64,000 nucleotides of DNA from Halococcus sediminicola (GTDB lineage: Archaea > Halobacteriota > Halobacteria > Halobacteriales > Halococcaceae): positions 1 to 64,000 of the forward strand of contig NZ_BBMP01000025.1 in NCBI RefSeq assembly GCF_000755245.1, read 5' to 3'. Below the pieces are notes generated by a model that was given only the letters and a program-made list of their open reading frames with translations, was not told the origin of the DNA and made no database searches. The position numbers and the translations under genes were made by a program. Below are positions 29,814-58,527 of the stretch, one piece after another. Positions within the stretch are counted from its first letter, which is position 1, and each line of letters opens with the position of its first letter.

Positions 29814-29956
29814 CACGCTGTATCTCTCAACTGCTGGAGAGGACTCGTGCAAAACTATGGATTGTTCCGATAATCCCCATAGCTTCTTCCGTATTCAGAG
29901 TCCATCGACCGTCGATCTAGATGCTCCCCCATTCCGGCTCAGAGAAGCCACTCAGT

Positions 29957-32455: not shown

Positions 32456-32456
32456 T

Positions 32457-34127
32457 ATGGGGACGTCCAGACGGAGGTTCCTTGCCGGATGCGCTGGCTG
32501 CGCGGCGGCGGTAGCGATGCCGACCGCGGCCGAAGCGCGGACGTTCGGCGACGAGAACGGGCCGAGTAGGCCGGATTTGCCGAGTTCGTCAGTAGGAGAT
32601 GTCTCGCTTGAAGGCCAAGCGGCGATGGCCGATGTCGGGCGTCGCTTTCAGCAGCAGCGCCCGCAGATGCAGCGCACGGTCAGCGCCGTCGACGATCTTG
32701 GTCTTGATCCCACAGGCAACGAGCCGGTCAACGGCACGCTCGGTTCGGCCCTGTCGGGCATGTCGAACACGCGCGTCGTCTTTCCGAGCGGCGGGACGTT
32801 CGCTCTCTCAGGACAAGTGACGGCCCGGCCGAGCGGTCCTATCGAACTCGTCGGCAACGGTAGTTCGTTCGTCATTCCAGCAGGAGAGGAGACAAAGAGT
32901 CTGACGCTCGTATTGGAGGGCGGCAGTCTCGTACGCGATATCGTTATCGACCAGAGCACCGAGGGAGTCGTCCAAGAACTCAGCATTCAGGCGGGTAACG
33001 GGGTTGTTCGTGCCGAGAACGTGACTATCAAAGGCTACGCGCCGGCGAAGTCGAACGTCGGCCCGACGGGCAATGACCCGGAGGTGGACGCAATGTTTTC
33101 GCCCATCGCACGGAGTAGTGGTTCGGTCGTTCAGGTCCGTAACCTCACCGCGGTCGGTGGGACGGCCGCCGGGACGCACGACGAGGCGGACCTCCCCGAA
33201 TCAGCGCCGGAAAATCGTCTCGGAGCGCCGATGGGGGTCTGGGTCGGGAAGGCCAACGCGGGCACGATCCAACTCGTTAATCCAGAACTCCGGGCTTGGT
33301 CGAACGGCATCTACGGCGGACGGACAACCGGAATCGTCGAAATCCGTGGCGGGACGTTCGTCAACAACTTCAACGCACAGACGCGCGTCGGCGGTGGATC
33401 GGTCGTCGACGGGGCCTCGATGCTACTCGATGACCGCCAGTGGTCGGACAAGGGACCGTTCAAAATCGGCCATCAGGGCGTCTATGCGGTGCGAGTAGAT
33501 GCGAAATACGGGAACCAAACCGACCCGGCGGAGTTCAAGAATCTCAAGATAGTGGCGAACTCGATGCGCGAAGGATCCTCGCTATTCGATTGGGAGAGCG
33601 CGTCTGGCCCCGGTATCGTTCGCAACTGCCACATTACGAACCACCTCGACCGCCCGGTGTTCCTCGGTGAGAGTCCGTCGGCTCCGGCAACGACGAACAT
33701 CATGGTCGACCAGTGCCTCATCGACGGGAACTCCTCAGCGGCTGTGATGGAGATGCAGGGCCGTCCGCAGTCGAAGATTCAGCGAACATGCGTCACGACG
33801 CCCGAGGCGGGCCCAGAAGGCGTCAGCGGGGCGCAAATCGGGCCGGGGATGAGTTTCGGGCAGTGCACGAGCGCGGGTGGATTGGCTGCGCCGGACAAGG
33901 TCGGTGCCGGCGGAAACATCAGCGCGCTCCCCGCGCCGAGCTACAACGGCACCGGAGCGGCTGGCATGGGCGGAATGGGTGGGGCTGGCATCGGAAAAGC
34001 AGCGCTCGCCGCGGCTGGGTTACTGGTTCTCGTCGGGGCTGCTATCCTAATCGGCGTGCCGGCGGGAGCGGCGGGGCTGGGGGTGCTCTCGTCGCTGATT
34101 TTAAGCTATCTCCTCGACGATGACTGA
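32457..34127 (+). CDS. Tat-exported right-handed beta-helix surface protein
   Basis: From ATG at 32457 the protein has 556 residues. 'SRRRFLAGCAGCAAAVAMPT' is a Tat signal. The body (about 100-440) has the repeated short strands and Asn/Gly turns of a pectate-lyase-like parallel beta-helix ('VRNLTAVGG', 'GIVEIRGGTFVNNF', 'IVRNCHITNHLDRPVF'). A Gly/Met-rich hinge leads to two C-terminal hydrophobic segments that anchor it. Such helices bind or cut polysaccharide or act as adhesins. Its place directly ahead of the transfer operon makes a cell-contact role attractive but unproven. Confidence 0.7.
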   Translation: MGTSRRRFLAGCAGCAAAVAMPTAAEARTFGDENGPSRPDLPSSSVGDVSLEGQAAMADVGRRFQQQRPQMQRTVSAVDDLGLDPTGNEPVNGTLGSALSGMSNTRVVFPSGGTFALSGQVTARPSGPIELVGNGSSFVIPAGEETKSLTLVLEGGSLVRDIVIDQSTEGVVQELSIQAGNGVVRAENVTIKGYAPAKSNVGPTGNDPEVDAMFSPIARSSGSVVQVRNLTAVGGTAAGTHDEADLPESAPENRLGAPMGVWVGKANAGTIQLVNPELRAWSNGIYGGRTTGIVEIRGGTFVNNFNAQTRVGGGSVVDGASMLLDDRQWSDKGPFKIGHQGVYAVRVDAKYGNQTDPAEFKNLKIVANSMREGSSLFDWESASGPGIVRNCHITNHLDRPVFLGESPSAPATTNIMVDQCLIDGNSSAAVMEMQGRPQSKIQRTCVTTPEAGPEGVSGAQIGPGMSFGQCTSAGGLAAPDKVGAGGNISALPAPSYNGTGAAGMGGMGGAGIGKAALAAAGLLVLVGAAILIGVPAGAAGLGVLSSLILSYLLDDD

Positions 34128-34536: not shown

Positions 34537-34962
34537 ATGGACATGGCAGACAGACCGGACGAATGGATTGAGGAGGCAAAACACATCGTAACTGAGCATG
34601 AACGGCCGGCTGGAGCGGCCCTCATCGTCCAAGGAGTGGCGCTGGCGCTACTCTACTTCTCGGCTGCAATCCCCGCAGCGGCACAGGAGAACGTCTGTGC
34701 AACGCCAATCGGCGACTTCACGAACGGGCTGATTACGGCCGCACTCGGAGTCGGGCTGGCGCTGGTGTTTCTGGGCCTCATCGTGAGCTTTGGCGGCCGC
34801 CCGCTCGCCTTTTCGGGGAACGCAATGGGCAAGCTCTCGTCGATGTCTTCGAACGCCATCATTGGCCTCATCGGCATCGTGTTCGTCGCCGTGATTTTCT
34901 CGTGGGTGCTCGCGTACGCGCCCATCGACATCCCGCAGGGCTGCGTCCCGCTGGGAGGATAG
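34537..34962 (+). CDS. VirB2/TrbC-like pilin candidate
   Basis: A 141-residue protein. A charged N-terminus leads to a hydrophobic segment (about 26-46) ending in an Ala-rich cleavage-like site ('FSAAIPAAAQEN'). The mature part has two long membrane helices (about 62-86 and 107-128) joined by a short polar loop ('GGRPLAFSGNAMGKLSSM'), plus two cysteines (54, 136). Signal peptide plus hairpin of two helices is the layout of VirB2/TrbC conjugative pilins and archaeal DNA-import pilins. No sequence homology can be proven by eye. First gene of the operon; its stop shares one base with the next start. Confidence 0.6.
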   Translation: MDMADRPDEWIEEAKHIVTEHERPAGAALIVQGVALALLYFSAAIPAAAQENVCATPIGDFTNGLITAALGVGLALVFLGLIVSFGGRPLAFSGNAMGKLSSMSSNAIIGLIGIVFVAVIFSWVLAYAPIDIPQGCVPLGG

Positions 34963-36356
34963 TGACCCGAGCAGCTGCCCGACGGCTCTGTGTTGTTGCT
35001 GTCGGATTTTTTCTCGTCGCAAGCCTCGCCACCATGGGTATCTCCGGCGGTGGAGTAGTAGCGGGGCAGGCGACAAACGGGACGAACGCCTCCGCGACCA
35101 CACCCGACGGGCAACTCGGCCAGCTCAACGGATCGAACGATACCGACACGGATTCAAACCAGACGACGCCGCTCGATGCGTCGAATCAGCGCAATCAGAC
35201 GGGTGCTATCGGCGGGGCGAGCGGTGGGCTGACCGGCGGGAACGTGAGTGCGAGCATTCAGGGAAACGGCAGTAGCACCACCAGCGGCAGCAGCGGTGGC
35301 GGGCTGTTCGGCTTCTCGATGAAGAAGGACGTCATTCGGCCGACGATGAACTCGACGCGGACGATGCTCGCCAACGGCACGGTGTGGATGCTCAATCAGT
35401 CGCTCGAAACGACTGTCGGCACGCCGGTCCCACAGGACGACAACGACGACGGTATCGTGTTCGTGCCGACGAACGACCCGTGGCAGGGTCTCTACAACGA
35501 CTTCTTCATCCCGTACATCTTCCCGCTGGCGACCGTCCTCGCACTGCTCGGGATGATCATCGAGTGTGGTATCATGCCATGGGAGGCGCTGCGGAATCCG
35601 ACCTACTCACAAACCCGCGCGTTCGTCACGTTCGTGCTGACGCTCGTGGCGATTGTATTCACGATGCCGATTATCACCGTGATGCACGCCTTCGTCGACG
35701 TGCTGGCGACGAACGTCGCACCCGATGCGGCGGAGCTGATCCAGAGTACGAAGGGATTGATGAACCTCGGTGCGGGGTCGATTCTCGGCATCGTCACCGC
35801 CTACGCAGTTGGCTACACCGAGGTACTCATCCTCGCGTTCATCTACGCGCTTCGCTACGGCGCGCTGTTCATCCTGCCGTGGTTCCTCCCGCTACTGATT
35901 GCGCTTGCGTACAACGCGCCGCACGACCGCCTGTCGAACCTCTCGTCGGAGCTGCTCTGGCAGTACATTGGCCTGTTGATTCAGGCGGTGCCGGTGGCCT
36001 TCCTGTTCCGCGGCGCGTACGAGATGGAATGGGACTTCGGCATCGGCGGGCTAATGGGACTGCTGGCTTCGGCGGCCATCTTCCTCGTCGCGGCCGCACT
36101 CCCGATTGTCACGTCGATTGGGATGTTCAAAGCAGCCCCATCAGTCCAGTCGGTAGCATCGGGCGCGGCCGGCTACGTCGCCGGTTCGTCGGCGAGTGAC
36201 TACGCTCGCCAAGCGCCCGGACAAGCCGCTCGCGGTGGCTATCAGCGCATGGCGAACGTGAAAACAAGCATTAAGGAGCGTGTGGCATCGCTCACCGAAA
36301 CGGACGAAGACGGGGATCCATACAGAAACGGAATCCCCGCAAGTGGAGAACTCTAA
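34962..36356 (+). CDS. VirB6/CedA-like polytopic membrane protein
   Basis: From GTG at 34962 (overlapping the previous stop) the protein has 464 residues: a signal-like segment ('RRLCVVAVGFFLVASLATMG'), a long Asn/Ser/Gly/Thr-rich extracellular region to about 150 with many glycosylation sites, then five to six membrane helices (about 178-390, 'IFPLATVLALLGMIIECGIM', 'YGALFILPWFLPLLIALAYN') and a cytoplasmic basic tail. VirB6, TrbL and archaeal CedA are polytopic channel components encoded near VirB4; topology and position match, sequence family is not proven. The GTG start gives a proper signal; upstream starts do not. Confidence 0.6.
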   Translation: MTRAAARRLCVVAVGFFLVASLATMGISGGGVVAGQATNGTNASATTPDGQLGQLNGSNDTDTDSNQTTPLDASNQRNQTGAIGGASGGLTGGNVSASIQGNGSSTTSGSSGGGLFGFSMKKDVIRPTMNSTRTMLANGTVWMLNQSLETTVGTPVPQDDNDDGIVFVPTNDPWQGLYNDFFIPYIFPLATVLALLGMIIECGIMPWEALRNPTYSQTRAFVTFVLTLVAIVFTMPIITVMHAFVDVLATNVAPDAAELIQSTKGLMNLGAGSILGIVTAYAVGYTEVLILAFIYALRYGALFILPWFLPLLIALAYNAPHDRLSNLSSELLWQYIGLLIQAVPVAFLFRGAYEMEWDFGIGGLMGLLASAAIFLVAAALPIVTSIGMFKAAPSVQSVASGAAGYVAGSSASDYARQAPGQAARGGYQRMANVKTSIKERVASLTETDEDGDPYRNGIPASGEL

Positions 36357-36359
36357 ACC

Positions 36360-36722
36360 ATGTCACACCAAGACACACCCAGCGAGGAGCACGTTGACGA
36401 CCGCATCCTGTCGGATTTTTCGACTGACCCGGAGCTGGTCGGCTATTCACACAAGACGTGGGCGCTGGCAGTCCTGTTCGTCGGTATCATGACGTTCGTG
36501 CTGCCGCAGTTCTTCCCGTTGCCCGTCGCCCTCATTGGCGGTCTCGGGGTCGTGGCCGGTGTCGGCATCCTCTTTTCGGCGACGCCGCCGCATCTCACCC
36601 CATGGGAGTTCGCCTATCGGCGTCTCACTTCCCATACTCAGCAGCAAATTTATGTTCCAGATGGAAGTGGTAGCGGATGGAGCAGACATACAGACCATAC
36701 CAAGTATACTAACAATGAGTGA
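36360..36722 (+). CDS. VirB3-like small membrane protein
   Basis: A 120-residue protein starting 3 bases after the previous stop. A polar N-terminus is followed by two adjacent membrane helices (about 32-50 and 53-73) and a cytoplasmic tail with 'TPWEFAYRRLTSHTQQQIYV'. VirB3 proteins are about 100 residues with a helical hairpin and sit directly upstream of, and often fuse to, VirB4. This gene overlaps the VirB4 start by 8 bases. Assignment rests on size, topology and gene order. Confidence 0.6.
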   Translation: MSHQDTPSEEHVDDRILSDFSTDPELVGYSHKTWALAVLFVGIMTFVLPQFFPLPVALIGGLGVVAGVGILFSATPPHLTPWEFAYRRLTSHTQQQIYVPDGSGSGWSRHTDHTKYTNNE

Positions 36723-39700
36723 TGACGCTACGAATCCAAACTCGAACTCGCAGCAGCGCGGTAGCGACGGCGGTATCGAGCAGCCGGCCAACGAGACGGT
36801 TCCGGGGAGAATCGCCCGGCTCCCGGGCGTGCGCTCGATGCCGGTCATTGGTGCCGGGCGACCAACGTCCGGCGAGGATCACATCCCACTTCAGGACGCC
36901 GTTCGCGGCGAGTACGCCATCCGACGCGACGACGGGACGTATATCGGGGTCATCGAGGTCGAGCCGGCGAACATGGCGACCGTCGACGATAGCGAGTGGG
37001 AGGCGCAGGTCGAGCGCTTATCAAGCGTCCTAATGTCGAACACGAACGGCTCGGTCCAGATTTACTCTCCGATGCGCTCAGTCGACTACGGTGACCGCCA
37101 CGAGACCTACAGCGAGCAGGCCCAAGAGCGCCATCTCACCGGCGATACGACCAACAGCAAAGCTCTCGCGGACATCGCCCAAGAGCGCGCGAAGAACGTC
37201 AGCCTCCACGAACAGACCACGCTCTCGCGCACGCACTACGTCATCGTCTCGGTTTCGGAGCTGGATACGACCGCACGATTCACCGAAGATCGCGGCGGGC
37301 TAGCGACGGTGCCCGTCGTCGGGTCGATGGTTAAACAGCACGAGCGCGAACAGAAAGACGACGCCGCTCACGCGCGAGCGATGTGCGATAAGCTCACCAC
37401 GCGCGTCGAGCAGATGGCATCGGCGATTCGTGGAATGGAGGGCGTCTCGGCGACACCGCTCTCCTCGACGAAGGCGACGCAGGTCATCGACGACCACTAC
37501 GGCCGCGGCGATGCCTTCGCCTACGACGACTACGCCAGCCTCGTCCGACAGGCTCCGCTCGTCTACGGTGACGAGGATGACCCCGAGTACCCAATCGCCC
37601 ACGAACATGAGCAGGTCGAAGGCGACGCCACGGGCGGGCGTGCAGTCGCTGACGACGGCGCGCAGGCCCGATACCAGCCCGGCGTCTCGCCGCCCGATCG
37701 GACGACCGCCGACGTCGTGCGCGACGAGCCGGATGCGCTCGCCGATCACTACAAGTCGCTACTCGCGGCGAAGTTCGACACTACCGACCCCGGCCATGTC
37801 CGCATCGACGACCGGACGCTCACCAGTACCATCGCCGTTCGCAATTGGCCGCGCGTGCCGACCTACGGGATGTTCAGCCACATTCTGGCGTCCTCGAAGC
37901 CGGGCGTCGAGGTCATCCTCTCGGTGCAGGCCGAGCGCGACGAGACCGACGACATGGACCAGAAGGTGCTCTCGCTTGAGCAGAAGTGGAAGAAGGCGGA
38001 GGAAAAGGAGTCGTTCACCCGCGACCGCGATCGCCAGAAATACGAGACGGCGAAGGACATCAACGAGACCCGGAAGGCCCCGAACAAGGCGATGTTCGAA
38101 GTCGCGGCCTACATCACGGTCAAATCCGACGTCACCGCCGCACCCAGCAACGAGGACCGCGTAGAGTGGCACAACGACACGGTGGCGAGCGTCAAGCGCA
38201 AGCTCCAGGAAAAGCCGGCGAACGCCGGCGGGGTGCGCGTCGACCACAACCAGATGAACGGGCTGCACTCTTCGGCCCCGATAGCGAAAGACGTCATCGG
38301 CGAGACGGCGCTCATGAAGGACATGGGCCTCGCGTCGGTCTATCCGTGGCACGCGAAGAATCTCACCGAGCCGAACGGCGTGGTCGTCGGCAAGCACCGC
38401 GAGCGCGACGAGCCGACGGTGCTCGACATCTACAACCGGCCGACGGGCTACAACATCGGCATCTTCGGCACCATTGGCAGCGGGAAGACGACCTCGCTCA
38501 AGCAGTTGCTCACACGGCGAAAACTCCGCAACCCCGAGACCACTATCGTTGTCATCGACCCGTTGCAGGATTTCGCCGGACTCACCAAACTGTTCGACGG
38601 TGAGCGCATCGTCATCGGCGGCGACACGGCCATTAATCCCTTCCACATCGAGCCGACGCCCGAGGACGTGCTACGGGACATCGGCCGCGAGATACCGTTC
38701 AAGACGGCCGTCCGGCAGGCGAAAGCGTTCGTCGAGACCTACTACCAGCTGGAGGGGATGAACTACGAGAACCGTAAGGGTACGTGGGAGAAGGCCATCA
38801 AGCTCGCCTACAAGTGGGCGGGCATCACCGAAGATCCCGACACCCACGACCGAAAGAGTCCAACGGTCATGACCGCCATCTGGTTCATCCGCGACATGGC
38901 CCGTAACCCCGGCAACTACGTCGACGACGCGCTCGAAAACGTCGAATCGGCGAAGAAAAACCGGGAACAAACCGCGGTCGAGATTCTCAACAACGACATC
39001 GAGCCACTACTGGAGGGCGGCGAGTACCACAACCTCACCCAGCAGACCGACATCACGGACATTGAGAACACCGGCTTCCTGTATCTCGACCTCCAGCAGT
39101 ACGATTCGGACCGCGAGGCCGGCGGGCTGATGATGCAACTGCTGATTTCGCAGGTCTACGAGCAAGCGAAAACATCGGCGAACCCGACCGTGACGGCCTT
39201 CGACGAGGCTCACTACATGTTCTCGAACACGGCCGACCTGCGCTTCCTGCGCCAGATCGTTCGCCACTCCCGGCATTACGACCTCTCGATGATATTCAGC
39301 ACCCAGCAGATGGGCGATTTCTTTGAGGAGCGCGAAGACGAGGGTGAGACGGTCAAAGAGTCGGCGAAGGACATCATCGACAACACCTCGATGACACTCT
39401 TTCACTACCTGAAAGAGATGAACAGCACATGGGGCAAAGCATTCGACCTCAGTGAGGCCGAACAGAAGTTCATCAAGGACGCCGAGCCAGGCGAGCGCGA
39501 AATCGGCTACGCCGAGGCGCTCCTACAGATCGACCGTGAGGGCTGCTTCCCGCTGCGTGTCGAGATGGACGAGGACGTGAACCCGCGCGAGTTCGCTCTC
39601 TATCGTTACGATCCGCAGAAACACGGCGAGGACATGGCCGCCTACCTTCGCCATCACGACGACGTGTGTAACTGGCGCTGGGCGAGCGAATCGGGCTTCC

Positions 39701-40482
39701 GGCCGGAGTTGGCGGACGAAACGGAACCGGATTCGGAACCATCCACACAGCCCGCTCAGAGCGACGAGGGCGACGGCACGGACGACGAAAGGGAGGCTGG
39801 GCCATCGGACCCAGAAGCCACTGAGGGTGATGAGCGAGCCACTGGGAGCATAGATGACGCCGAGAGGCGAGCCGACGCGAGCGGCATCAGGAGCGCCGAA
39901 GAGGTCATCGCACAGACCGGCGCAGCGGACAGAAAGCAGTCGGACAAGCCAACGGATGAACTGACGCTCGGTGACATCCACGGCACCGTTGACGCGCCCG
40001 TTGCCGCTTCGCTCCGCGACGCTGGCTTCGAAAGTGTCGAGGCAGTCTATGGGGCCGACAACAGCGCGCTCGCTGACGTCGAGGGCTTCGACCCCACTAA
40101 GGCCGCGTGGCTCCAACGGAACGCAGCACGGACACTCGGGTGGTCCGAGGATCTCATCGAGGATCCAGAGAGTGCGGAGACTAACGAACGCCAGCAACAA
40201 AAAGACGAATCGAGCGATGAGAATGCGAATGGAGAAACCAAGGACGGCGCTCAGCCCGCGCTGACGGACATCAAACACATTGGTGAGGACCGTGCAGCCA
40301 CACTCCGCGAAGCCAGCTTCGAGTCGGTTGGCGACGTAGCAAGTGCCGAGTGCGACGAGCTGACCGTGGTTGGAGGCGTCGGCCCGACGCGCGCCGAGCA
40401 ACTCATCGAGAGCGCAAGCGACCTTCTCGCCGAATGGCCGGCAAAAGATAAAATATCCGCCGGTGAGAGTCGAAGCGAATGA
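36715..40482 (+). CDS. VirB4-like transfer ATPase with C-terminal helix-hairpin-helix domains
   Basis: From ATG at 36715 the product is 1255 residues. The N-terminal about 560 residues form the VirB4/CagE N-domain; the ATPase core has Walker A 'GTIGSGKTTSLKQLL' (about 585-599), 'IVVIDPLQDFAGL', Walker B 'TVTAFDEAHYMFSNTADLRF' (about 826-845) and 'SRHYDLSMIFSTQQMGDFF'. After an acidic linker, two helix-hairpin-helix units (about 1083-1143, 1182-1240; 'LTDIKHIGEDRAATLREASF', 'VVGGVGPTRAEQL') add likely DNA or protein binding. VirB4 powers pilus assembly and substrate transfer at the membrane. The added HhH tail is unusual. Confidence 0.85.
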   Translation: MSDDATNPNSNSQQRGSDGGIEQPANETVPGRIARLPGVRSMPVIGAGRPTSGEDHIPLQDAVRGEYAIRRDDGTYIGVIEVEPANMATVDDSEWEAQVERLSSVLMSNTNGSVQIYSPMRSVDYGDRHETYSEQAQERHLTGDTTNSKALADIAQERAKNVSLHEQTTLSRTHYVIVSVSELDTTARFTEDRGGLATVPVVGSMVKQHEREQKDDAAHARAMCDKLTTRVEQMASAIRGMEGVSATPLSSTKATQVIDDHYGRGDAFAYDDYASLVRQAPLVYGDEDDPEYPIAHEHEQVEGDATGGRAVADDGAQARYQPGVSPPDRTTADVVRDEPDALADHYKSLLAAKFDTTDPGHVRIDDRTLTSTIAVRNWPRVPTYGMFSHILASSKPGVEVILSVQAERDETDDMDQKVLSLEQKWKKAEEKESFTRDRDRQKYETAKDINETRKAPNKAMFEVAAYITVKSDVTAAPSNEDRVEWHNDTVASVKRKLQEKPANAGGVRVDHNQMNGLHSSAPIAKDVIGETALMKDMGLASVYPWHAKNLTEPNGVVVGKHRERDEPTVLDIYNRPTGYNIGIFGTIGSGKTTSLKQLLTRRKLRNPETTIVVIDPLQDFAGLTKLFDGERIVIGGDTAINPFHIEPTPEDVLRDIGREIPFKTAVRQAKAFVETYYQLEGMNYENRKGTWEKAIKLAYKWAGITEDPDTHDRKSPTVMTAIWFIRDMARNPGNYVDDALENVESAKKNREQTAVEILNNDIEPLLEGGEYHNLTQQTDITDIENTGFLYLDLQQYDSDREAGGLMMQLLISQVYEQAKTSANPTVTAFDEAHYMFSNTADLRFLRQIVRHSRHYDLSMIFSTQQMGDFFEEREDEGETVKESAKDIIDNTSMTLFHYLKEMNSTWGKAFDLSEAEQKFIKDAEPGEREIGYAEALLQIDREGCFPLRVEMDEDVNPREFALYRYDPQKHGEDMAAYLRHHDDVCNWRWASESGFRPELADETEPDSEPSTQPAQSDEGDGTDDEREAGPSDPEATEGDERATGSIDDAERRADASGIRSAEEVIAQTGAADRKQSDKPTDELTLGDIHGTVDAPVAASLRDAGFESVEAVYGADNSALADVEGFDPTKAAWLQRNAARTLGWSEDLIEDPESAETNERQQQKDESSDENANGETKDGAQPALTDIKHIGEDRAATLREASFESVGDVASAECDELTVVGGVGPTRAEQLIESASDLLAEWPAKDKISAGESRSE

Positions 40483-40673
40483 GCGACGACAGTAGTTCAG
40501 GACGAAGCTCGATTTCGACCAGTTCGGAAACCAAATCGCGTTTTGATTCGTTTCGGCGGCAACTTTCCGCACACATTGACAAAGACATGACGGGTGACGA
40601 TACGCTTGCGTACCTACTGGATGAGTTCGAAGACGAATACGACTGGGTTAACTTGGGCGGTGGCGATTCGTGA
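40479..40673 (+). CDS. Small accessory protein of the transfer operon
   Basis: A 64-residue protein whose ATG overlaps the VirB4 stop by 4 bases. Serine-rich N-terminus then 'SRFDSFRRQLSAHIDKDMTG' and 'LAYLLDEFEDEYDWV', reminiscent of short ribbon-helix-helix or VapB-like proteins in haloarchaea, but too short to be sure. The tight overlap on both sides argues for a real gene and a role in the same complex or its control. Confidence 0.6.
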   Translation: MSDDSSSGRSSISTSSETKSRFDSFRRQLSAHIDKDMTGDDTLAYLLDEFEDEYDWVNLGGGDS

Positions 40674-41839
40674 GTCTACTTGGCAGCCGACAATCTCCCG
40701 ATACTGCTGAAGTGACCCGCGAACTCGCCGACGATGTTCACGAGTCGGTTGCCGAGCACGGTGACGTGCTGAACGTTCGCCCCTACCGCGATGATGGAGA
40801 TATGCGGGCGGCAAAGCAATTGCTCACCGCTATTCACGACGTTAAGTCATCGGATGGGCTTCGAAGTACGAATGAGACACCACCCATCGCCTTCGAGCCG
40901 ACCTACGCGAATGAAGGTATCGGGTATCGGTTCGCGCCCGTCGACGAGCATGTGCTCGAAGAACTGGAGCGGCTCGTCCCGAACTTCTACCGCGACGCCG
41001 ATGTGACGCGCGATCCGGCCGAATTCATCCCAATCAAAGAGGGCCAGTATCTGGCGGCTGCACGGCTTGAACTCGCCGATGATAACTACTTCAAGCCCAT
41101 CAAGCATTTCGAAATCGATCCCGAGGAGTTCGAGACTGATCCCTACGGAGCCATCATCCCTGAGATGATCGGCCGGCGCGAGGGCGGTGATGATGTCTCG
41201 ACGATGGTGCAAGTACTAATTCGGCCGGCGTGGTCGAACCATTCACGCGACCGCAAGAACTGGTATCACGGCGTCGGGCACACCGCCGAGCAGTTGAAGA
41301 AAGGCGAGGTAGGCTGGCGGCCCAGTGCCGTCCTCGAAGGCTTCGCCACGGCGCTCACCGGCGGCAATGCTGAGGAAATCGATCACACGAAGAAGCGACC
41401 GACGACGAGCGCACAGAAGCAGGCCGCCGACGTCGTTGGTGACCAGCGCGGCGCGAAGGGCTACCATCTAAACGTGCGCGTCATCGCCACCGCGAACAGC
41501 CCCGAGGAAGCCGAAGAGCGCGTACGAGACACCGCCGGAATGTACCGTCGGTTCTATACTAGCACCTACGAGCAGGGCTTCGAGCCGATTTGGGCCGGCC
41601 CAGATGGCGCGACGACGCTCGTTCGCCGGATGGCAAAGCGCGAGTGGGTCGACCGAGAGATGATACTCTCGGCGGGTGCTCTCGCTGGTGTCTGTCACGT
41701 CCCGACGACGCTCGCCACACCCGAAATCGACTACTCGCGAACAAGCGGTTCGGGGAGCACGCCGAGCGAAGCGCCCGCGTTCGAATCGTTCCAGGACGAA
41801 GCCGATAGCGAGAGCGAAAGCGGGGCAAGCGGCGAATGA
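40670..41839 (+). CDS. Conserved protein preceding the coupling ATPase
   Basis: From GTG at 40670 (overlapping the previous stop by 4 bases) the protein has 389 residues and no membrane segment. Two repeated alpha/beta parts, 'DVSTMVQVLIRPAWSNHSRD' and 'KGYHLNVRVIATANSPEEAE', look like the domain that elsewhere precedes HerA/FtsK-type transfer ATPases, sometimes fused to them (DUF8128-like; uncertain). The C-terminal 40 residues are acidic and disordered. It probably docks on the VirD4-like ATPase two genes downstream. Confidence 0.6.
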   Translation: MSLLGSRQSPDTAEVTRELADDVHESVAEHGDVLNVRPYRDDGDMRAAKQLLTAIHDVKSSDGLRSTNETPPIAFEPTYANEGIGYRFAPVDEHVLEELERLVPNFYRDADVTRDPAEFIPIKEGQYLAAARLELADDNYFKPIKHFEIDPEEFETDPYGAIIPEMIGRREGGDDVSTMVQVLIRPAWSNHSRDRKNWYHGVGHTAEQLKKGEVGWRPSAVLEGFATALTGGNAEEIDHTKKRPTTSAQKQAADVVGDQRGAKGYHLNVRVIATANSPEEAEERVRDTAGMYRRFYTSTYEQGFEPIWAGPDGATTLVRRMAKREWVDREMILSAGALAGVCHVPTTLATPEIDYSRTSGSGSTPSEAPAFESFQDEADSESESGASGE

Positions 41840-42006
41840 AACCGAAGCCCCACTCCGTGCTCCTGTTCGCTGGCATAGCGGTGTACGTCGGCCGTGGCGC
41901 GCTGCTGGGCGGGTGGACAGTCCACCCCGGCCATCTCGTGGCGTTCGCCGCCCTCTACGTTGGCGTGTACGCGCTCCGAGACGACCACCATCCCATCCAT
42001 GAGTGA
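41836..42006 (+). CDS. Tiny two-helix membrane protein (56 residues)
   Basis: The frame ATG 41836 to TGA 42006 encodes 'MKPKPHSVLLFAGIAVYVGR' followed by GALLGG, a turn, and 'HLVAFAALYVGVYALRDDHH'. Two membrane helices with positive N-terminus. It overlaps the upstream gene by 4 and the downstream ATPase by 8 bases. Coupling ATPases of the VirD4 class are membrane-anchored; the next protein has no membrane segment, so this hairpin could be its separate anchor (inference). Confidence 0.65.
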   Translation: MKPKPHSVLLFAGIAVYVGRGALLGGWTVHPGHLVAFAALYVGVYALRDDHHPIHE

Positions 42007-45000
42007 AACAGCTGACACCGAAACCGAGGCCGAAGCAGAGACCGAAGACTGGCCGTATGCAGTAACGCCGGCGAGCGAAGACGAACAGCGCCAATTCACG
42101 CGCCGGGAGATGAAGATGATAGCGGAGAACGGCAACATCTACGCCGGATCTCGAGCGCGGGCGATGGTCGAGTACGCCGAGCAGGTTCCCGACCAGCCGC
42201 GCTGGATAGGTGCAACCGAGCGCGACAACAAAGACGTCTCGCTGCCGTACAGCCTACTCTTTCGGCACATCTTCATTGGCGGACTGACTGGAATGGGGAA
42301 GTCGACGCTGGAGAAGAACATCGTCCAGCAGCACATCTACGCCGGAAAGGGCGTCTGCTATATCGACCCGAAGGGCGATGACGTGCTTGACATCCTCATG
42401 TCGATTCCCAAAGAACGCTGGGACGACGTGATCTTCATCTCGCCGGGCAGCGACGCTTTCCGCAAACAGGTCGGTTTCAACCTGCTGGAGACTCATTCTG
42501 ATCCCGGCGATCCCGGATTCGACGGCGAGGTAGAGGGCATCGTCAACGACCTCAAAGCGTTGCTCGCCGCCGACGACTATTGGGGGCCGCGCATGGACGG
42601 GATCGCCTCCAATATGCTGCGCGGGATGATTCGCCACGAGTTCGATTTCACACTCGCCGATATGTTCGGCGCACTGCTTGATGAGGAGAGCCGGGCGGAG
42701 TACGCGAACCTGATTCAAGCCAGCGACGAAGACCTCTCGTTCATTCAGGGCTATACGAAGAAAATTGCCGAACTCGATGACATCGACCTCGACGCGATTC
42801 GCCGGCGATTGAAGGATTGGGTCGAGGAGCCGACCATGCGCCAAATCGTCGCCCAGCGCGACGCGAAGACGTCCATCCCGCAGGCCGTCGAGGACGAGAA
42901 AATCATCCTCGTGAACAACAACCTCCCCGACGAGCCGAAGGAAGCGGTTGCGACCGCGATACTCCGCCAGATATGGACTGCCGTGGATTCGCGGCCATCC
43001 GCACGCGACCAGCTGATGCAGGACATGGCCGAGGCCGACGACGGCGGCGTGGGCGAGTTCGACGAGGAGGCCGTCGACGAGGCTGTCCGAGAGCACGAGG
43101 AGAGCGGTGGGTCGTTCGACGCGGACTACACCCCCTACTTCCTCGTCATCGACGAGGCCCACGACGTGCTCAGCGAGGGGAGCAAGGTCGAGAAGATGCT
43201 GGCGAAGGCACGCTCGAAGCGGCTGGGCCTGACCATCGCCACGCAGCAGCTACGGCAGTTGGACCAAGACGCGCAGGATGCAATTCTCGGCAACTGTAAT
43301 TCTCTCATCTCCTACGACCCCGGCCACCCGGATGAGGCGAAACTGCTCTCGCGGCGCTTCGGCGAAAAAGACGACCAAGACCTACTGGAGACCGACCAGT
43401 TCCACGCATGGATGCGGACGGCGACCGGACCGGGTAAGCGCTCGCGGCCGTTCCTCGCCGAAGCGTTTCCACCGTACCCACCGCTGCATAGCATCAAGGA
43501 CGCCTACCGGCTCATCGTCAAGAGCCTCGACGAGTATGGGACAGTCCCGCCAACGAGTGAGGAGGTGCAGGACAAGATGCACTTCTCGACGGCTGGCAGT
43601 GTTGAGGAACAAGTTGAGGAGAGCCAAGAGATAGACGATCAGCAGGCCGCGCAGGTCGCAAAGGCCGCCTACGACGAGTGGCTTCGCCGGGAGAACAAGG
43701 AGAGCCAGAACAACGAGAGAAACCAGCAAAACCAGAACAACGAAGATAACGAGGACAGCCAGCAGAACGGAGAGGGCGAGCGCTGGGTCCTGGTCGAGAA
43801 GCCGGCGATCCGGAAGCGGGTGGACCGCTACCTGCCGACCGTCGACGTCAGCCACGTCAGCCTACTCTGGCACGTCATCGACCACGTTCCCGATGACCTG
43901 CTGGAGGTCGCCGAACGCGACGGCAAGATGTTCATGCGCTGCACCGAGCGCGGCAAGAACAGGATCTTCGAGACCGGTTCGGCGGGGAGCGCTGGCGGTG
44001 GCAAGCACCGGACGCTACTGAAGGACGGCTACGCGCCGCTGTTTCGGGCAGGGATGGTCGTCTCGCTACCGACGCAGGGAGACGGTGATATGCCCGACGG
44101 CGTGGCCGACCTCTCGGACGTGGCGATGCTCGATTTCGAGATCGGCGAGCGCACCCACCGGGATGTCCGCAACGTCAGCCAGCAGTTCGAGCAGCAGTAC
44201 CCGCTGCTGGACCGTTTCGCCATCCCCCAGGGTGCGAACCCGGTCATCATACGGCGGACGGACGGCCCGGCGGTCGCCATCGAGGCCGAGAGCAGCACCG
44301 GCGACTCGAAGCCGGCGCAGTCGCTGTTCAACCTCGCACAGGCGTACAACAAGGGCCAGCACTGCCTGTTTACCTGTCGTGAGCGCGTCGCCGGAACGCT
44401 CTGGCAGACGCTCACCGAGAACAGCTACTACTCGCACAGCTGGGACGGCGAGCACCAGCGCTGCTACAACAGTGGCGAGCTCATGGTCAACGGCCAGATG
44501 ATGCTTCGCCCGAAGGGCGCTCGCCAGACCGTCTGGCTCCACGATGAGGAAAGCGGCGAGTACCTGCTCCGAGATAGCGATGGTGAGGAACACGCCCGCT
44601 TCGAGAGCGCCACCGAGGTGTTCGAGCAGCCCGAGAAGTACCCGGCGACCAGTGAGGTCGTGCCGGACGACCAGCGTGACAAGTACGTGCCCGTGTACCG
44701 GCCGTTCATCCCGGAGTACCACTTTGACCGAAGGGTGTCCGAGAGCGCGTGGGACATCGTAGTGGTTCCCGAGGACGCGGACCAACCCGAGGACCTGCAC
44801 CTCTACCGTGGCCCCGATGTCGAGCAGCTGCCCATCACCGAAGCCGTCGGCGAGGAGCAGTCGGCGAGCGTGAGCGTTGACGAGAACGAGGACGATAGTA
44901 GGGCCGAGCCGGCGGACGCGGGCGCTGCGCGCGAAGAGACGGCGACCAGCGGTAGTGAGCTATCCGACGAGCAGCGCGAACAGATGGAAAAAGCGTTCCC

Positions 45001-45046
45001 CGGCGACGAAGACAGCGACAGTTCTCCGGTACTCGAAAAACTCTGA
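41999..45046 (+). CDS. VirD4/TraD-like coupling ATPase
   Basis: From ATG at 41999 the protein has 1015 residues. Walker A 'GGLTGMGKSTLEKNIVQQHI' (about 93-112), 'GVCYIDPKGDDVLDILMSIP', Walker B 'PYFLVIDEAHDVLSEGSKVE' (about 378-397) and 'RLGLTIATQQLRQLDQDAQD' place it in the TraD/HerA branch of FtsK-like ATPases. A Gln/Asn/Glu-rich spacer (about 562-597) separates a second, unrecognised C-terminal half of about 400 residues. Coupling proteins bring the DNA substrate to the channel. No own transmembrane segment is seen. Last gene of the operon. Confidence 0.82.
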   Translation: MSETADTETEAEAETEDWPYAVTPASEDEQRQFTRREMKMIAENGNIYAGSRARAMVEYAEQVPDQPRWIGATERDNKDVSLPYSLLFRHIFIGGLTGMGKSTLEKNIVQQHIYAGKGVCYIDPKGDDVLDILMSIPKERWDDVIFISPGSDAFRKQVGFNLLETHSDPGDPGFDGEVEGIVNDLKALLAADDYWGPRMDGIASNMLRGMIRHEFDFTLADMFGALLDEESRAEYANLIQASDEDLSFIQGYTKKIAELDDIDLDAIRRRLKDWVEEPTMRQIVAQRDAKTSIPQAVEDEKIILVNNNLPDEPKEAVATAILRQIWTAVDSRPSARDQLMQDMAEADDGGVGEFDEEAVDEAVREHEESGGSFDADYTPYFLVIDEAHDVLSEGSKVEKMLAKARSKRLGLTIATQQLRQLDQDAQDAILGNCNSLISYDPGHPDEAKLLSRRFGEKDDQDLLETDQFHAWMRTATGPGKRSRPFLAEAFPPYPPLHSIKDAYRLIVKSLDEYGTVPPTSEEVQDKMHFSTAGSVEEQVEESQEIDDQQAAQVAKAAYDEWLRRENKESQNNERNQQNQNNEDNEDSQQNGEGERWVLVEKPAIRKRVDRYLPTVDVSHVSLLWHVIDHVPDDLLEVAERDGKMFMRCTERGKNRIFETGSAGSAGGGKHRTLLKDGYAPLFRAGMVVSLPTQGDGDMPDGVADLSDVAMLDFEIGERTHRDVRNVSQQFEQQYPLLDRFAIPQGANPVIIRRTDGPAVAIEAESSTGDSKPAQSLFNLAQAYNKGQHCLFTCRERVAGTLWQTLTENSYYSHSWDGEHQRCYNSGELMVNGQMMLRPKGARQTVWLHDEESGEYLLRDSDGEEHARFESATEVFEQPEKYPATSEVVPDDQRDKYVPVYRPFIPEYHFDRRVSESAWDIVVVPEDADQPEDLHLYRGPDVEQLPITEAVGEEQSASVSVDENEDDSRAEPADAGAAREETATSGSELSDEQREQMEKAFPGDEDSDSSPVLEKL

Positions 45047-45047
45047 G

Positions 45048-45602
45048 CTACTGCTCGGGGGCCTGTCCTTCATCGAGGTCTCGAATCACATCGACCATAT
45101 CGTTGTAGGCCTCGTGCATCCGCTCTATCTCACTCTCCAACTCCTTGACGTTGGCTTCCAATTCCTCGATGCGCTCGTGGTCCGTCTCCTGCCCAGCTCC
45201 GGACCCAGCTTCCAGTTTATCGACGCGCTGCTGGAGGTCGCGGACATCGCTGGCCTGCACGCCGACATCATCTACCAACTCCTCGAACAGTCTTTCACCC
45301 GTCTCAGTTAGCCCGAACTGACGGGCCGGAACAGGGGTGCCGACGTGGGCCTCCCCGACGACCTCAACCGGTGGCTCACCGTCCATCCACTCGACCGACG
45401 CCCACAGGTCTTCCGGTGGATTGAGTAGCGCATTTATGTGGTGGTTGAAGCTCCCACGCTCCAGCCCAGTGTATTCTCTGAGTTCTGAGGTGTTGGCCTC
45501 GCCGCTGTGGAAGCGTAGTGCCTGTAGGATGACCCGGCGACGGCCGCTCACCCACGCGGCGAGGTCCGGTTCCGACTCTTGCTCGTCAGCAGTGGTCGCC
45601 AT
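45048..45602 (-). CDS. Winged-helix regulator with coiled-coil tail
   Basis: A 184-residue protein convergent with the coupling ATPase gene (1 base between stops). The N-terminal half is a winged helix ('ILQALRFHSGEANTSELREY' then 'TGLERGSFNHHINALLNPPE'), the C-terminal half a heptad-rich coiled coil ('RIEELEANVKELESEIERMH'). This composition is common among regulators encoded on haloarchaeal plasmids. It is a good candidate for control of the transfer or partition genes. Confidence 0.8.
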   Translation of the reverse strand: MATTADEQESEPDLAAWVSGRRRVILQALRFHSGEANTSELREYTGLERGSFNHHINALLNPPEDLWASVEWMDGEPPVEVVGEAHVGTPVPARQFGLTETGERLFEELVDDVGVQASDVRDLQQRVDKLEAGSGAGQETDHERIEELEANVKELESEIERMHEAYNDMVDVIRDLDEGQAPEQ

Positions 45603-45886: not shown

Positions 45887-46249
45887 TCACGGGTCGAACT
45901 CAGCGAGACGCTCTTCCAACGCATTGTCATCCATATTCTCGATAGCCTCCAGACCGAGCGCGACGACTAGCGGCTCAAAATGCCGTATCTTCTCGACCTT
46001 CTTTCCGTTCCGACGCTGACGCTGTGTGTCTATTTCACTGGCGACGAGATCGAACTCCTGACGGAGGTCTTCAGGGAGATACATATACGTACCCTGATAT
46101 AGGTCCTTGGCGCTCTGTGGCTTCTCCTGTTGTTCTTGTTCTTCTGGTTCTGCTGATTGTTCTGGTTTTTCTTGTTCTTCCGATTCTGCTGGCTGTTCCG
46201 AGGACCGACCCTTCCGACGACTGCTCAGTCTGTCAGCGCGGTCTCCCAT
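45887..46249 (-). CDS. ParA partner protein (probable centromere-binding protein)
   Basis: A 120-residue protein whose ATG overlaps the parA stop by one base (TAATG). The N-terminal half is a low-complexity Glu/Gln/Pro stretch; the C-terminal half ('DLYQGTYMYLPEDLRQEFDL' then 'KVEKIRHFEPLVVALGLEAI') has the strand-helix-helix look of ribbon-helix-helix DNA-binding proteins. Coupled to ParA it most likely binds the partition site, perhaps the repeats just downstream at 45737-45855. Confidence 0.65.
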   Translation of the reverse strand: MGDRADRLSSRRKGRSSEQPAESEEQEKPEQSAEPEEQEQQEKPQSAKDLYQGTYMYLPEDLRQEFDLVASEIDTQRQRRNGKKVEKIRHFEPLVVALGLEAIENMDDNALEERLAEFDP

Positions 46250-47106
46250 TACTGGGCCTCCCGAATGGATGCTGTTTCTGCCGGGGGCAGTCCAAACTGC
46301 TCATCGAGCGTGGCGGCAATCTCTAAGAAGACGTCGCACATGTCCACTCCCGGGTCATACTCGAAAAGCGAGCTGCCGGCACTGTGTGCACGCTGGAGGG
46401 CGACCCGTTTCCGAACCTCGAAGCGGGGCGTGTCATCGAATGCGCGAGCGAACCAGTCCATCATTTCCGATGCTTCATTGGTCTGCTCGACTCTGTTGGC
46501 GACGAGCGCACGCTCCTGAATCGAGATGTCGAAGTCCCGCTCTATCGAGGTCACGTGGTCGAACAGTAGCTCCACAGCGCGCTTACTGGTAGATTCTGCG
46601 AGCGCCGGGATGAGAAGGTTCTGGGCAGCATAGAGCGCGTTGTCCGTCAGATGGCCAAGCGACGGAGGGCAGTCAATCAGCACGTAATCATACTGCTGGT
46701 CGAGTTCCTCAAGCGCGAGCGCCAACTGCTCCGTGGGTCGGCGGACATGGGTCATCTCGCGTTCCGTATGGTGATGGTCGACGTTGCTGGGTACGATGTC
46801 CATCTCCGCGTGCTCCTCAACGAGGCGCTTGATTTCTCCGCGCTGTTCCGAGTCCGTCAGCACGTCGAAGAGGCTAGGCGGTTCCGCGTCGTAGGCCTCA
46901 GCGAATCCGAGGCCCTCCGTGGCGTTGCCCTGTGGGTCGAGGTCGACGAGCAGGACGTCACGACCGCGCTGATTCAGCGCCCCGGCGACGTTCACGGCAA
47001 TCGTGGTCTTTCCGACGCCGCCTTTCTGGTTGCTCACGGCGATTGTAACCGGGTGTTTCACGTCATCGAGTTCTTCTGGTTCTGCTTGTTTTTCTGGTTG
47101 TGCCAT
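46249..47106 (-). CDS. parA: ParA-family partition ATPase
   Basis: A 285-residue protein with the deviant Walker A 'SNQKGGVGKTTIAVNVAGAL', 'DVLLVDLDPQGNATEGLGF' and 'YDYVLIDCPPSLGHLTDNAL', the full ParA/Soj set. Such ATPases move DNA or protein cargo and stabilise plasmids and integrated elements. It is the first gene of a two-gene operon with a small DNA-binding partner. Together with the transfer genes it suggests the block replicates or is maintained as an independent unit at least part of the time. Confidence 0.93.
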   Translation of the reverse strand: MAQPEKQAEPEELDDVKHPVTIAVSNQKGGVGKTTIAVNVAGALNQRGRDVLLVDLDPQGNATEGLGFAEAYDAEPPSLFDVLTDSEQRGEIKRLVEEHAEMDIVPSNVDHHHTEREMTHVRRPTEQLALALEELDQQYDYVLIDCPPSLGHLTDNALYAAQNLLIPALAESTSKRAVELLFDHVTSIERDFDISIQERALVANRVEQTNEASEMMDWFARAFDDTPRFEVRKRVALQRAHSAGSSLFEYDPGVDMCDVFLEIAATLDEQFGLPPAETASIREAQ

Positions 47107-57101: not shown

Positions 57102-57497
57102 ATGAGCGAGAGCGACACCGAACGAACGGTCGTCAAGACGTACGTTCCAGCCTACCAGAAAGAGCGGTGGCGCGAGCACGCAGACGAACTGGCGATGAGC
57201 CAGAGCGAGTTCGTGCGGTCGATGATACAGGCCGGCCGACGCGACTTCACCATCGATGACGACGAACCCGGGCAAGAGGGTGCTGAAGACGAAACCCCGG
57301 GGGTAGACGGCCTCGAAGGCCGGGTGCTCGGCGTTCTCGACGACGGCTACTGTTCGTGGGACGGACTCGTCGAAGCGCTCACCGACGACATCGAGGAGCG
57401 GCTCGAAACCGTTCTTCAACAACTGCAGCGGAAGAACCGCATCCAGTACAGCGGCCGCCACGGCGGGTACACTATCGAGGACGATAATGGCCGCTGA
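57102..57497 (+). CDS. DUF5805 protein, integrase partner
   Basis: A 131-residue protein. The N-terminal 'ERTVVKTYVPAYQKERWREH' and 'ADELAMSQSEFVRSMIQAGR' form a ribbon-helix-helix DNA-binding domain; the C-terminal half is a small winged helix ('ERLETVLQQLQRKNRIQYSG'). DUF5805 genes precede XerC/D-type integrases in many haloarchaeal genomes, so a directionality or accessory role is likely. A Shine-Dalgarno ggaggt lies at 57083-57088. It overlaps the integrase start by 11 bases. Confidence 0.85.
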   Translation: MSESDTERTVVKTYVPAYQKERWREHADELAMSQSEFVRSMIQAGRRDFTIDDDEPGQEGAEDETPGVDGLEGRVLGVLDDGYCSWDGLVEALTDDIEERLETVLQQLQRKNRIQYSGRHGGYTIEDDNGR

Positions 57498-58527
57498 GGC
57501 GACCGACGACGCGATTGCCTACTTCGTCGAGGATCTCGAATACCACGGCCGCTCGGAACGAACGCGCGAGGCCTACGAACGGGTGCTCCGCCGGTTCGAG
57601 GCGTTTCTCGAAAGTCCTCGCTGCCCTAGCGAGGATGCGCTCGCACCTGCCGAGGCTGGCCAGCGCGAGTGTATGGCGTGGGTTCACTCGCTTCGGGACA
57701 CACACAGTCGAAGCACGGTGGCGACCTACGCCTCCTACCTGCATCGGTTCTATGCCTACATGATGCAGGTCGAGGCGTTCGAGTCGAACCCGATGGTGCT
57801 CGTCGTCGAGGAAATGGACGAAACCATCGAGAAGGATCCTCAACGGCGGGAAATCTCGTTGGCGACCATGCGCGAGTTCGTCGGGGAAATCCATCATCCG
57901 CTCGATCGGGCGGTGATCGTGCTGTTGCTGAAGACGGGGATGCGCGTCGGCGAACTCTGTAATCTCGACCTGCGGGACCTCACTCTCGACGACAAAGACC
58001 TCGAATCGGCGTATTCGCTTGGTACCCGCGGCCAGTTGAGCGGGCGGCCCGACTCGATATACGTCGCCAGCGACGTGGACCGCGGTGCCGTCGTCAACGG
58101 CGAGGAACGCCACGCGGCGAACAAACGACGGCGCGCGACGGTCGTTCCGGTCGATACGGAGCTTCGTCTAACGCTCCGTCGGTGGCTCGCCATCCGTCCG
58201 GATGCAGTGTCGACCGCGGAACCGCTGTTTCTCAGCACGCGAGACGACTGGGGCGAACGCCTCACGCCACCGATGGTGCGCTCGCTCGTGACGAAACACG
58301 CCCGCTCGATGGGTTGGTATCGTTCGGGCGGCGATGCGGCCGAAAACGTCACACCTCACTACTTCCGGCATTTCTTCACGACCCATCTCCGCGACCGCAC
58401 CGGGGACCGCGGCATCGTGAAGTACCTCCGGGGCGACGTCGCCGACGACATCATCGACACCTACACCCACAACTGGGGCGATCGTGTCCGCGAACTCTAT
58501 CTGAAAAATATCTACAGTCTGATGTAG
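57487..58527 (+). CDS. Tyrosine recombinase/integrase (XerC/D-like)
   Basis: A 346-residue recombinase. The SAM-like N-terminal DNA-binding part ('YFVEDLEYHGRSERTREAYE') is followed by the catalytic domain with Arg in 'LLKTGMRVGELCNLDLRDL', the H-x-x-R box in 'VTPHYFRHFFTTHLRDRTG' and the C-terminal tyrosine in 'RVRELYLKNIYSLM'. These enzymes insert and excise genetic elements by strand exchange. It overlaps the DUF5805 gene and closes the mobile block. No tRNA or attachment repeat was found next to it, so the attachment site remains unknown. Confidence 0.93.
   Translation: MAAEATDDAIAYFVEDLEYHGRSERTREAYERVLRRFEAFLESPRCPSEDALAPAEAGQRECMAWVHSLRDTHSRSTVATYASYLHRFYAYMMQVEAFESNPMVLVVEEMDETIEKDPQRREISLATMREFVGEIHHPLDRAVIVLLLKTGMRVGELCNLDLRDLTLDDKDLESAYSLGTRGQLSGRPDSIYVASDVDRGAVVNGEERHAANKRRRATVVPVDTELRLTLRRWLAIRPDAVSTAEPLFLSTRDDWGERLTPPMVRSLVTKHARSMGWYRSGGDAAENVTPHYFRHFFTTHLRDRTGDRGIVKYLRGDVADDIIDTYTHNWGDRVRELYLKNIYSLM

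Follow-up and report, generated by a model that had tools for sequence, protein, structure and literature searches.

A haloarchaeal type IV secretion operon with a split coupling protein whose conserved C-terminal domain may stand in for a missing relaxase

Eight genes of Halococcus sediminicola (g1 to g8) encode what is, by sequence comparison, a bona fide type IV secretion system (T4SS) with a VirB6-like pore, a VirB4 motor and a VirD4-type coupling ATPase. The machine is of a known kind and it is the coupling protein that is unusual. As a whole, the operon is best explained, with fair probability, as a plasmid or mobile-element T4SS of the monoderm-bacterial kind whose coupling protein is split between g6 and g8. 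What is new here is the conserved D...ExE domain at the C-terminus of g8 (g8C) and its replacement, together with g6, by a relaxase module in pNG500 and a relative, the kind of T4SS itself being already known. This exchange of g6 and g8C with a relaxase and TrwB-type protein on closely related channels points to a concrete candidate for the absent DNA-processing step, one that can be tested at the level of three residues. The features of the window, i.e. the whole 64,000-nucleotide stretch that was analysed, are given in Table 1.

Table 1. Features of the secretion operon and its surroundings (positions within the window)
Feature	Position	Strand	Assignment	Basis
Upstream companion 1	30554..32455	+	YdjM + DUF7282 membrane/secreted protein, companion of T4SS	Pfam PF23951 6.9e-53, PF04307 1.7e-12
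Upstream companion 2	32457..34127	+	Secreted protein, twin-arginine-type leader, weak beta-helix similarity	Weak PF13229
g1	34537..34962	+	VirB2-like pilin candidate	Signal segment 24-49, helices 61-93 and 100-133 (hydropathy)
g2	34962..36356	+	VirB6/TrbL-like channel	PF19590; signal segment and ~7 TM-like segments (hydropathy)
g3	36360..36722	+	VirB3-like two-TM protein (candidate)	Fused to VirB4 in relatives
g4	36715..40482	+	VirB4 ATPase, two C-terminal helix-hairpin-helix domains	NCBIfam, PDB, Pfam
g5	40479..40673	+	64-aa soluble protein	Only in close Halococcus relatives
g6	40670..41839	+	389-residue N-terminal half of coupling protein	Fusions to g8, hhalign, Foldseek
g7	41836..42006	+	56-aa hydrophobic ORF, window-specific insertion	Missing from L046, L154
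g8, whole ORF	41999..45046	+	VirD4/TraG-type motor and C-terminal domain (g8C)	
g8 residues 1-560	41999..43678	+	VirD4/TraG-type coupling ATPase	PF12696, TIGR03743, DotL/IcmO
g8 residues 561-1015 (g8C)	43679..45046	+	Winged-helix-like part and D700...E762-x-E764	Invariant in 34/34 readable relatives
g8C motif codons	D700 44096-44098; E762 44282-44284; E764 44288-44290	+		
Regulator	45048..45602	-	Winged-helix regulator, convergent with operon	Weak HTH_5; conserved in L046
ParA	46249..47106	-	ParA-type partition ATPase	PF13614 1.3e-44; 91% identical in L046
Recombinase	57487..58527	+	Tyrosine recombinase	PF00589 1.3e-15

The eight overlapping or abutting forward-strand ORFs described in an earlier, sequence-only reading were reproduced exactly, with spacings of -1, +3, -8, -4, -4, -4 and -8 bases. 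Because pN/pS against Halococcus thailandensis (locus L046) is low for g1-g6 and g8 (0.16-0.57) and the same gene arrangement is found in two further Halococcus genomes and on many plasmids, these are real genes and not chance ORFs; dN/dS in the same comparison is 0.09-0.27, with synonymous sites close to saturation. The small g5 is 95% identical in locus L154 and 57% in L046, with a dN/dS of 0.21. The two-helix peptide g7, previously counted among the components, lies within a ~160 bp stretch absent from these two closest relatives, in which g6 overlaps g8 directly, and judged from this alignment it is probably not part of the secretion system.

The proposed channel and motor were borne out by profile searches. 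The polytopic g2 matches PF19590 (TrbL_3) above the cut-off, with an E-value of 2.8e-12, and has relatives on 33 plasmids; its VirB6 profile found no match in the PDB. For g4, the NCBIfam models VirB4_plasma (2.1e-45) and TIGR00929 (4.2e-20) agree with the best PDB sequence match, the VirB4 structure 4ag5 (E 1.5e-18), and the highest-scoring models are those for VirB4 of the mycoplasma ICE and CD1110 types. Pfam adds DUF87 (2.6e-7) and HHH_5 (6.5e-14), and a second helix-hairpin-helix domain lies at ~40258-40422. Grouping of the VirB4-like ATPase with HerA or FtsK was not seen, as no HerA or FtsK structure scored better than E 0.49 (the best HerA) against its profile, and related VirB4s occur in Patescibacteria, Actinomycetota and Chloroflexota. 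The two smaller proteins are assigned from position and relatives. The pilin call on g1 falls below threshold for PF18895 (T4SS_pilin) in the window (E 0.024), and the protein at the same position is above threshold in Halorussus limi (7e-10) and has a sub-threshold TrbC/VirB2 match in Halococcus dombrowskii (1.1e-4); g1 is thus a candidate VirB2-like pilin. While g3 has no HMM match, a homologous stretch is fused onto the VirB4 N-terminus at loci L040, L042 and L038, which supports the earlier suggestion of VirB3 and makes g3 a candidate VirB3-like anchor.

The VirD4/TraD-like ATPase was likewise recovered in the motor part of g8, which matches PF12696 (1.8e-9) and TIGR03743 (1.4e-15). TraD models are the best, the best PDB match is DotL/IcmO (3.9e-9), and the motor profile is closer to DotL and HerA than to FtsK. 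Sequence comparison indicates that g6 is the N-terminal domain of the same coupling protein, separated from g8: the two are fused at many loci (L038-L040, L047-L049, L059, L069, L070, L075, L007, L156, L157 and L177), and g6 is homologous to the N-termini of Chloroflexota and Actinomycetota coupling proteins (hhalign 96.4%). The predicted g6 fold resembles a VirB4 N-terminal domain (Foldseek match to TrwK/VirB4 of R388, E 3.5e-5), a link made by structure alone, with no similarity to the N-terminus of the operon's own VirB4 by hhalign. The ferredoxin-like strand order of the g6 model also raised the candidate of an HUH relaxase, which was rejected because the closest structural counterpart of g6 is that same VirB4 domain; PF03432 has no match among eight members of the g6 family.

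Given the coupling protein, a kinship with the Ced/Ted import machines, as first suggested, did not survive. Import of DNA for chromosomal repair would fit the minimal VirB2/VirB6/VirB4 set common to both and the lack of a relaxase (PMC9905601); however, Ced/Ted have no coupling protein, the only Ced match is at 2e-5 against 2e-45 for VirB4, relatives of the operon sit on plasmids, and one genome holds four different copies, so that we regard this explanation as most improbable. Nor is such a set rare in haloarchaea, as had been supposed: VirB4 relatives were found on 209 plasmids, mainly haloarchaeal, many with the same gene order and from many genera, and the literature on them goes back to 2011.

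The C-terminal 455 residues of g8 form the conserved domain g8C. Of its full alignment columns, 63 have an acidic majority, and among these only D700, E762 and E764 are invariant. In the AF2 model, which is weak (mean pLDDT 66.9, pTM 0.60), g8C is apparently a winged-helix plus D...ExE domain. The three invariant residues follow the order of a PD-(D/E)XK-like core, but ExE takes the place of ExK, and no lysine is conserved, although a catalytic one is typical of PD-(D/E)XK enzymes. These enzymes also do not form the covalent DNA link of relaxases. There was no match to g8C in Pfam, among PDB sequences, or, with the low-confidence model as the Foldseek query, in the PDB and the BFVD viral models, and tblastn found it nowhere outside haloarchaeal plasmids. 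Nevertheless, g8C may be nuclease-like, and is a candidate stand-in for the missing DNA-nicking enzyme. Replic_Relax (PF13814) was rejected as its identity (no Pfam match, hhalign 0.1%). A second coupling protein type (L172-type), found on 102 plasmids, has its own wHTH-like end with D...ExE...DYDKL; hhalign gave no significant similarity between this end and g8C, so that homology of the two D...ExE domains cannot be claimed. The sequence-only reading had passed over the g8C motif, the role of g6 as a coupling-protein half and the two helix-hairpin-helix domains of VirB4.

A winged-helix-like segment in a pump without a relaxase would also suit an FtsK-like mode of transfer for double-stranded DNA, as for Streptomyces TraB, in which the g8 winged helix reads plasmid repeats and uncut DNA is pumped. 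The presence of VirB4 and VirB6 and the motor profile described above speak against it, and it leaves the invariant D...ExE without explanation; we consider it very unlikely.

Genome-wide searches covered two relaxase families, and neither PF03432 nor Replic_Relax was found in the 3.76-Mb assembly, in keeping with the initial impression that no relaxase is visible; the genes scanned against Pfam hold no relaxase. PF03432 is also missing from the T4SS-bearing Halococcus relatives G196 and G199 and from 13 of 16 complete plasmids carrying the T4SS, and no other gene co-conserved with the operon was seen at the relaxase position in relatives. In pNG500 and Haloarcula JP-L23, a relaxase and a TrwB-type coupling protein take the place of g6 and g8C next to a closely related channel. 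In the VirB4 tree this relaxase-bearing clade is nested among g8C-bearing lineages, as sister to L044/L173/L174/L176 (SH-aLRT 100); the two relaxase loci are a small count and not phylogenetically independent. As g6 and g8C are exchanged for the relaxase and TrwB-type protein, this pattern suggests that g8C may process the transfer DNA. The absence of PF03432 and of a co-conserved gene at the relaxase position argues against conventional relaxase-dependent conjugation, in which a relaxase of an unrecognised family would lie at another site of the element, or a relaxase would come in trans from another replicon, and g8C would just bind DNA or the relaxosome. C-terminal domains of coupling proteins do commonly bind substrates, and the PDB and Foldseek searches of g8C did not support a nuclease fold. 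With unknown archaeal relaxases also proposed by Guglielmini et al. 2011 (PMC3158045), conventional conjugation is possible, if doubtful.

The surroundings of the operon fit a mobile-element setting, with ParA in the conserved 30.4-47.7 kb block, close to its right end, and a tyrosine recombinase nearby, a possible candidate integrase of the accessory region. The two upstream companion genes occur as a pair in Halococcus dombrowskii and belong to the conserved block in both H. thailandensis and G196, and in Haladaptatus halobius a beta-helix protein (PF13229 1.4e-13) lies upstream of the same operon. The block lies between two inverted copies of a 35-nt repeat (29841-29875 / 47753-47787); as the repeat is dispersed in the genome and close pairs elsewhere have the opposite polarity, it is no evidence for a composite transposon. 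The flanks, a Pst operon up to 16.7 kb and a phosphoesterase from 58.9 kb, are both present in relatives, among which no contiguous empty site was found, and thus the att site cannot be fixed. No oriT was identified, and there is no primase in the window; in several relatives primase genes follow the coupling protein. Those primases, the neighbouring ParA, the plasmid location of relatives, the winged-helix-like segment of g8C and the HHH DNA-binding domains of VirB4 all weigh against a protein-secreting T4SS that delivers effectors or toxins to rivals and needs no relaxase. In bacteria, protein secretion is a role often ascribed to T4SSs without a relaxase (PMC3158045), and a related T4SS poor in relaxases is retained by Patescibacteria (PMC12102498), but we find this explanation unlikely here.

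In the mobile-element T4SS that we favour, the pore, VirB4 motor and coupling ATPase are supported by homology, and the VirB3-like anchor and VirB2-like pilin would complete them. The machine probably sends DNA of the element itself out by way of the pore and into another cell. Tentatively, in place of a relaxase, the winged-helix and D...ExE parts of g8C might recognise and cut the transfer origin, such that the coupling protein itself would prepare the DNA that it pumps. We are slightly more hesitant about the general extension, that most haloarchaeal conjugation systems could be relaxase-free, with a g8C nuclease that marks and cuts the DNA which the same protein passes into the channel, and that was swapped in the pNG500 lineage for a relaxase and TrwB-type protein.

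Since 2011, archaeal T4SSs that have VirB4 and a coupling protein yet lack a relaxase have posed a puzzle (PMC3158045), which persists today (PMC12857230). The plasmid pNG500 of Haloarcula marismortui resembles the Halococcus operon in its pilin (a candidate in the operon), VirB6-like protein, VirB4 (with fused VirB3-like N-terminus) and coupling protein; it differs in that its coupling protein is of TrwB type, in carrying a relaxase of family PF03432 and in lacking g6 and g8C. Haloarchaeal fusexin-bearing integrated elements likewise carry VirB4 and TraG/VirD4 genes and XerC/D recombinases (PMC9259645), while no fusexin was noticed in the window. With the monoderm (MPF_FATA) and Patescibacteria T4SSs (PMC12102498), the operon shares VirB4 kinship, a candidate member of the T4SS_pilin family and a g6 homologue at the coupling protein N-terminus, whereas the coupling proteins examined from bacteria, at 831-910 aa, stop after the motor and the haloarchaeal one adds g8C; the VirB3-VirB4 fusions of haloarchaeal relatives are unseen in Patescibacteria. 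The Ced/Ted systems of Thermoproteota (PMC9905601) have the VirB2/VirB6/VirB4 core in common with the operon, where VirB2 is a candidate, but little sequence similarity to it. The haloarchaeal plasmid machines are placed here with monoderm-bacterial T4SSs instead. Finally, pT33-3 and the Sulfolobus conjugative plasmids (PMC12857230) have VirB4 and VirD4 homologues and no recognised relaxase, as here, but g8C distinguishes the haloarchaeal plasmids, on which alone tblastn matches to it were found.

The genes g1–g8, overlapping on the plus strand at 34537–45046, were all found in the sequence with the coordinates and spacings of the sequence-only reading, and the best-supported interpretation is that they encode the type IV secretion system (T4SS) of a mobile element. 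Gene order is also retained in two Halococcus genomes, and comparison of g1–g6 and g8 with Halococcus thailandensis (locus L046) gave pN/pS of 0.16–0.57 and dN/dS of 0.09–0.27, with synonymous sites near saturation. The conserved block (~30.4–47.7 kb) exceeds the operon. On the 5′ side it adds two genes, one for a YdjM/DUF7282 protein and one for a secreted protein resembling a beta-helix, which may serve the machine at the cell surface or in adhesion; on the 3′ side lie a winged-helix regulator and then ParA. The two-helix peptide g7, previously counted as an operon component, lies outside what is conserved, and g6 and g8 overlap directly in both closest relatives. The block is flanked by a 35-nt inverted repeat pair (29841–29875 and 47753–47787), and the rest of the genome has ~10 near-perfect copies of its core, several of which form pairs that face each other 1–15 kb apart.

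The assignment of g4 (36715–40482) as a VirB4 ATPase was borne out by NCBIfam models (VirB4_plasma 2.1e-45, CD1110 5.2e-24, TIGR00929 4.2e-20, TraC 2.6e-16), all under the full-length equivalog cut-offs, so that they place g4 in the superfamily but not in one particular subfamily; the Ced model reached just 2.1e-5, and Pfam DUF87 matches too. Its family profile retrieved the VirB4 structure 4ag5 from the PDB (1.5e-18) and no HerA or FtsK below 0.49. The C-terminal helix-hairpin-helix (HHH) DNA-binding domains (two in g4, the second at ~40258–40422) are a feature of Halococcus loci (L046, L154, L038, L007, L156); VirB4 in most loci of other genera stops near residue 990. The proposed channel g2 is of VirB6/TrbL type, scoring 46.7 bits with PF19590, for which the cut-off is 23. 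As a pilin candidate, g1 has a signal plus hairpin topology, and same-slot proteins elsewhere match T4SS_pilin (7e-10) and, under cut-off, TrbC/VirB2 (1.1e-4), while its own T4SS_pilin match is sub-threshold. The VirB3-like label of g3 found no match in HMM searches and draws support from a homologous stretch that forms the VirB4 N-terminus in several relatives, a fusion known in other T4SSs (PMC12102498).

Profile matches identify g8 residues 1–560 as the expected VirD4/TraD motor. The 389-residue g6 is fused to the g8 N-terminus in Haladaptatus, Halococcus dombrowskii and this genome's three other loci, and resembles N-termini of Chloroflexota/Actinomycetota coupling proteins (hhalign 96.4%, database of one; BLAST 2e-5 with Halorussus g6). 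Its AlphaFold2 model (pLDDT 71) matched the TrwK/VirB4 N-terminal domain of R388 in Foldseek (E 3.5e-5, probability 1.00). Taken together, these data show a coupling protein built of two domains, like VirB4, and here divided between two genes.

The C-terminal domain of g8 (g8C, residues 561–1015), conserved in almost every coupling protein of this type from haloarchaea, matched no Pfam family and no PDB sequence. Only 20 columns are invariant among 17 aligned sequences; in proteins that are 22% acidic, with 63 fully occupied acidic-majority columns, just three acidic residues never vary, D140, E202 and E204 (g8 D700, E762 and E764), and all three are present in 34/34 readable loci within PDG.A ... 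IExE(S/T)T(G)...P.QT..NL..A. The model, with a winged-helix-like segment ahead of helix, (P)D-strand, ExE-strand, helix and strand, has an element order compatible with a PD-(D/E)XK core; Foldseek against the PDB and viral models gave no significant match, leaving a nuclease fold unconfirmed. A resemblance to Replic_Relax received no support from profile comparison.

In pNG500 (Haloarcula marismortui) and Haloarcula JP-L23, a PF03432 relaxase fills the slot between VirB4 and a TrwB-like coupling protein that lacks g6 and g8C. PF03432 occurs in three of 16 plasmids examined whole, adjoining the T4SS in these two; the third, Halalkalicoccus jeotgali plasmid 2 (NC_014299), has a T4SS of the g8C type and, distant from it, three relaxase copies that are separate from one another. 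g8C is present in 13 of the 16 loci, the remaining one without it being Halorubrum L172, whose different coupling protein (a type found in 102 plasmids) ends in its own winged-helix-like segment and D...ExE...DYDKL. The chance of both relaxase loci falling among the three is 3/120 = 0.025, a weak figure that assumes independent loci. In a VirB4 tree (quick method, midpoint root), the relaxase-bearing pair forms a clade within g8C-bearing loci, sister to four of them (SH-aLRT 100). Among 22 relaxase plasmids, most have a TrwB-type coupling protein within ~1 kb of the relaxase, and just one is also in the g8C list. The invariant residues and this module exchange suggest that g8C might cut the transfer origin; it is also possible that a relaxase of a different kind serves the system.

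From ParA, the plasmid location of relatives, the HHH domains and the primase genes after relatives' coupling proteins, we infer that the T4SS probably exports DNA. Other possible readings are that it imports DNA, secretes protein or transfers double-stranded DNA. An NrS-1-type primase lies just 3′ of the coupling protein in six loci, and a primase pair in L172, L184, L185 and L186. Such genes often follow relaxase-less T4SS loci; none follows the window's operon.

Features recorded in the window and beside relatives' T4SS loci
Feature	Locus	Coordinates	Remark
YdjM/DUF7282 membrane protein and secreted beta-helix protein	window	30554–34127	recur upstream of operon
g7	window	41836–42006	hydrophobic 56-aa ORF in ~160 bp window-specific insertion, between g6 and g8
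Tyrosine recombinase	window	57487–58527	
NrS-1-polymerase-like gene	L044	16410–17684	
NrS-1-polymerase-like gene	L171	17536–18747	
NrS-1-polymerase-like gene	L173	17488–18759	
NrS-1-polymerase-like gene	L174	12391–13722	
NrS-1-polymerase-like gene	L176	17541–18812	
NrS-1-polymerase-like gene	L178	17504–18910	
Primase	L172	16767–19171	

The window covers 64 kb of a 117-kb contig in a 3.76 Mb genome, and the ends of a mobile element were sought and none could be fixed. This one Halococcus genome holds four different T4SS loci (contigs C25, C5, C9 and C24), all with g8C-type coupling proteins. Two copies of a TbsP-type regulator lie close together (21961–22791 and 24845–25654; 75% identity over 283 nt), and the accessory region has a 78-nt direct repeat (86%; 50333–50410 and 52890–52967) with a partial third copy at 29794–29818.

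No published description of g6 or g8C was found in a search outside subscription journals and preprints. A 2011 study (PMC3158045) described haloarchaea that have VirB4 and a coupling protein but no relaxase, and reported pNG500 to be conjugative; a 2022 paper places VirB4 and VirD4 in integrated elements of haloarchaea (PMC9259645). In 2025 the missing archaeal relaxase was noted again (PMC12857230), and a T4SS of the same broad class was described that year in Patescibacteria (PMC12102498).
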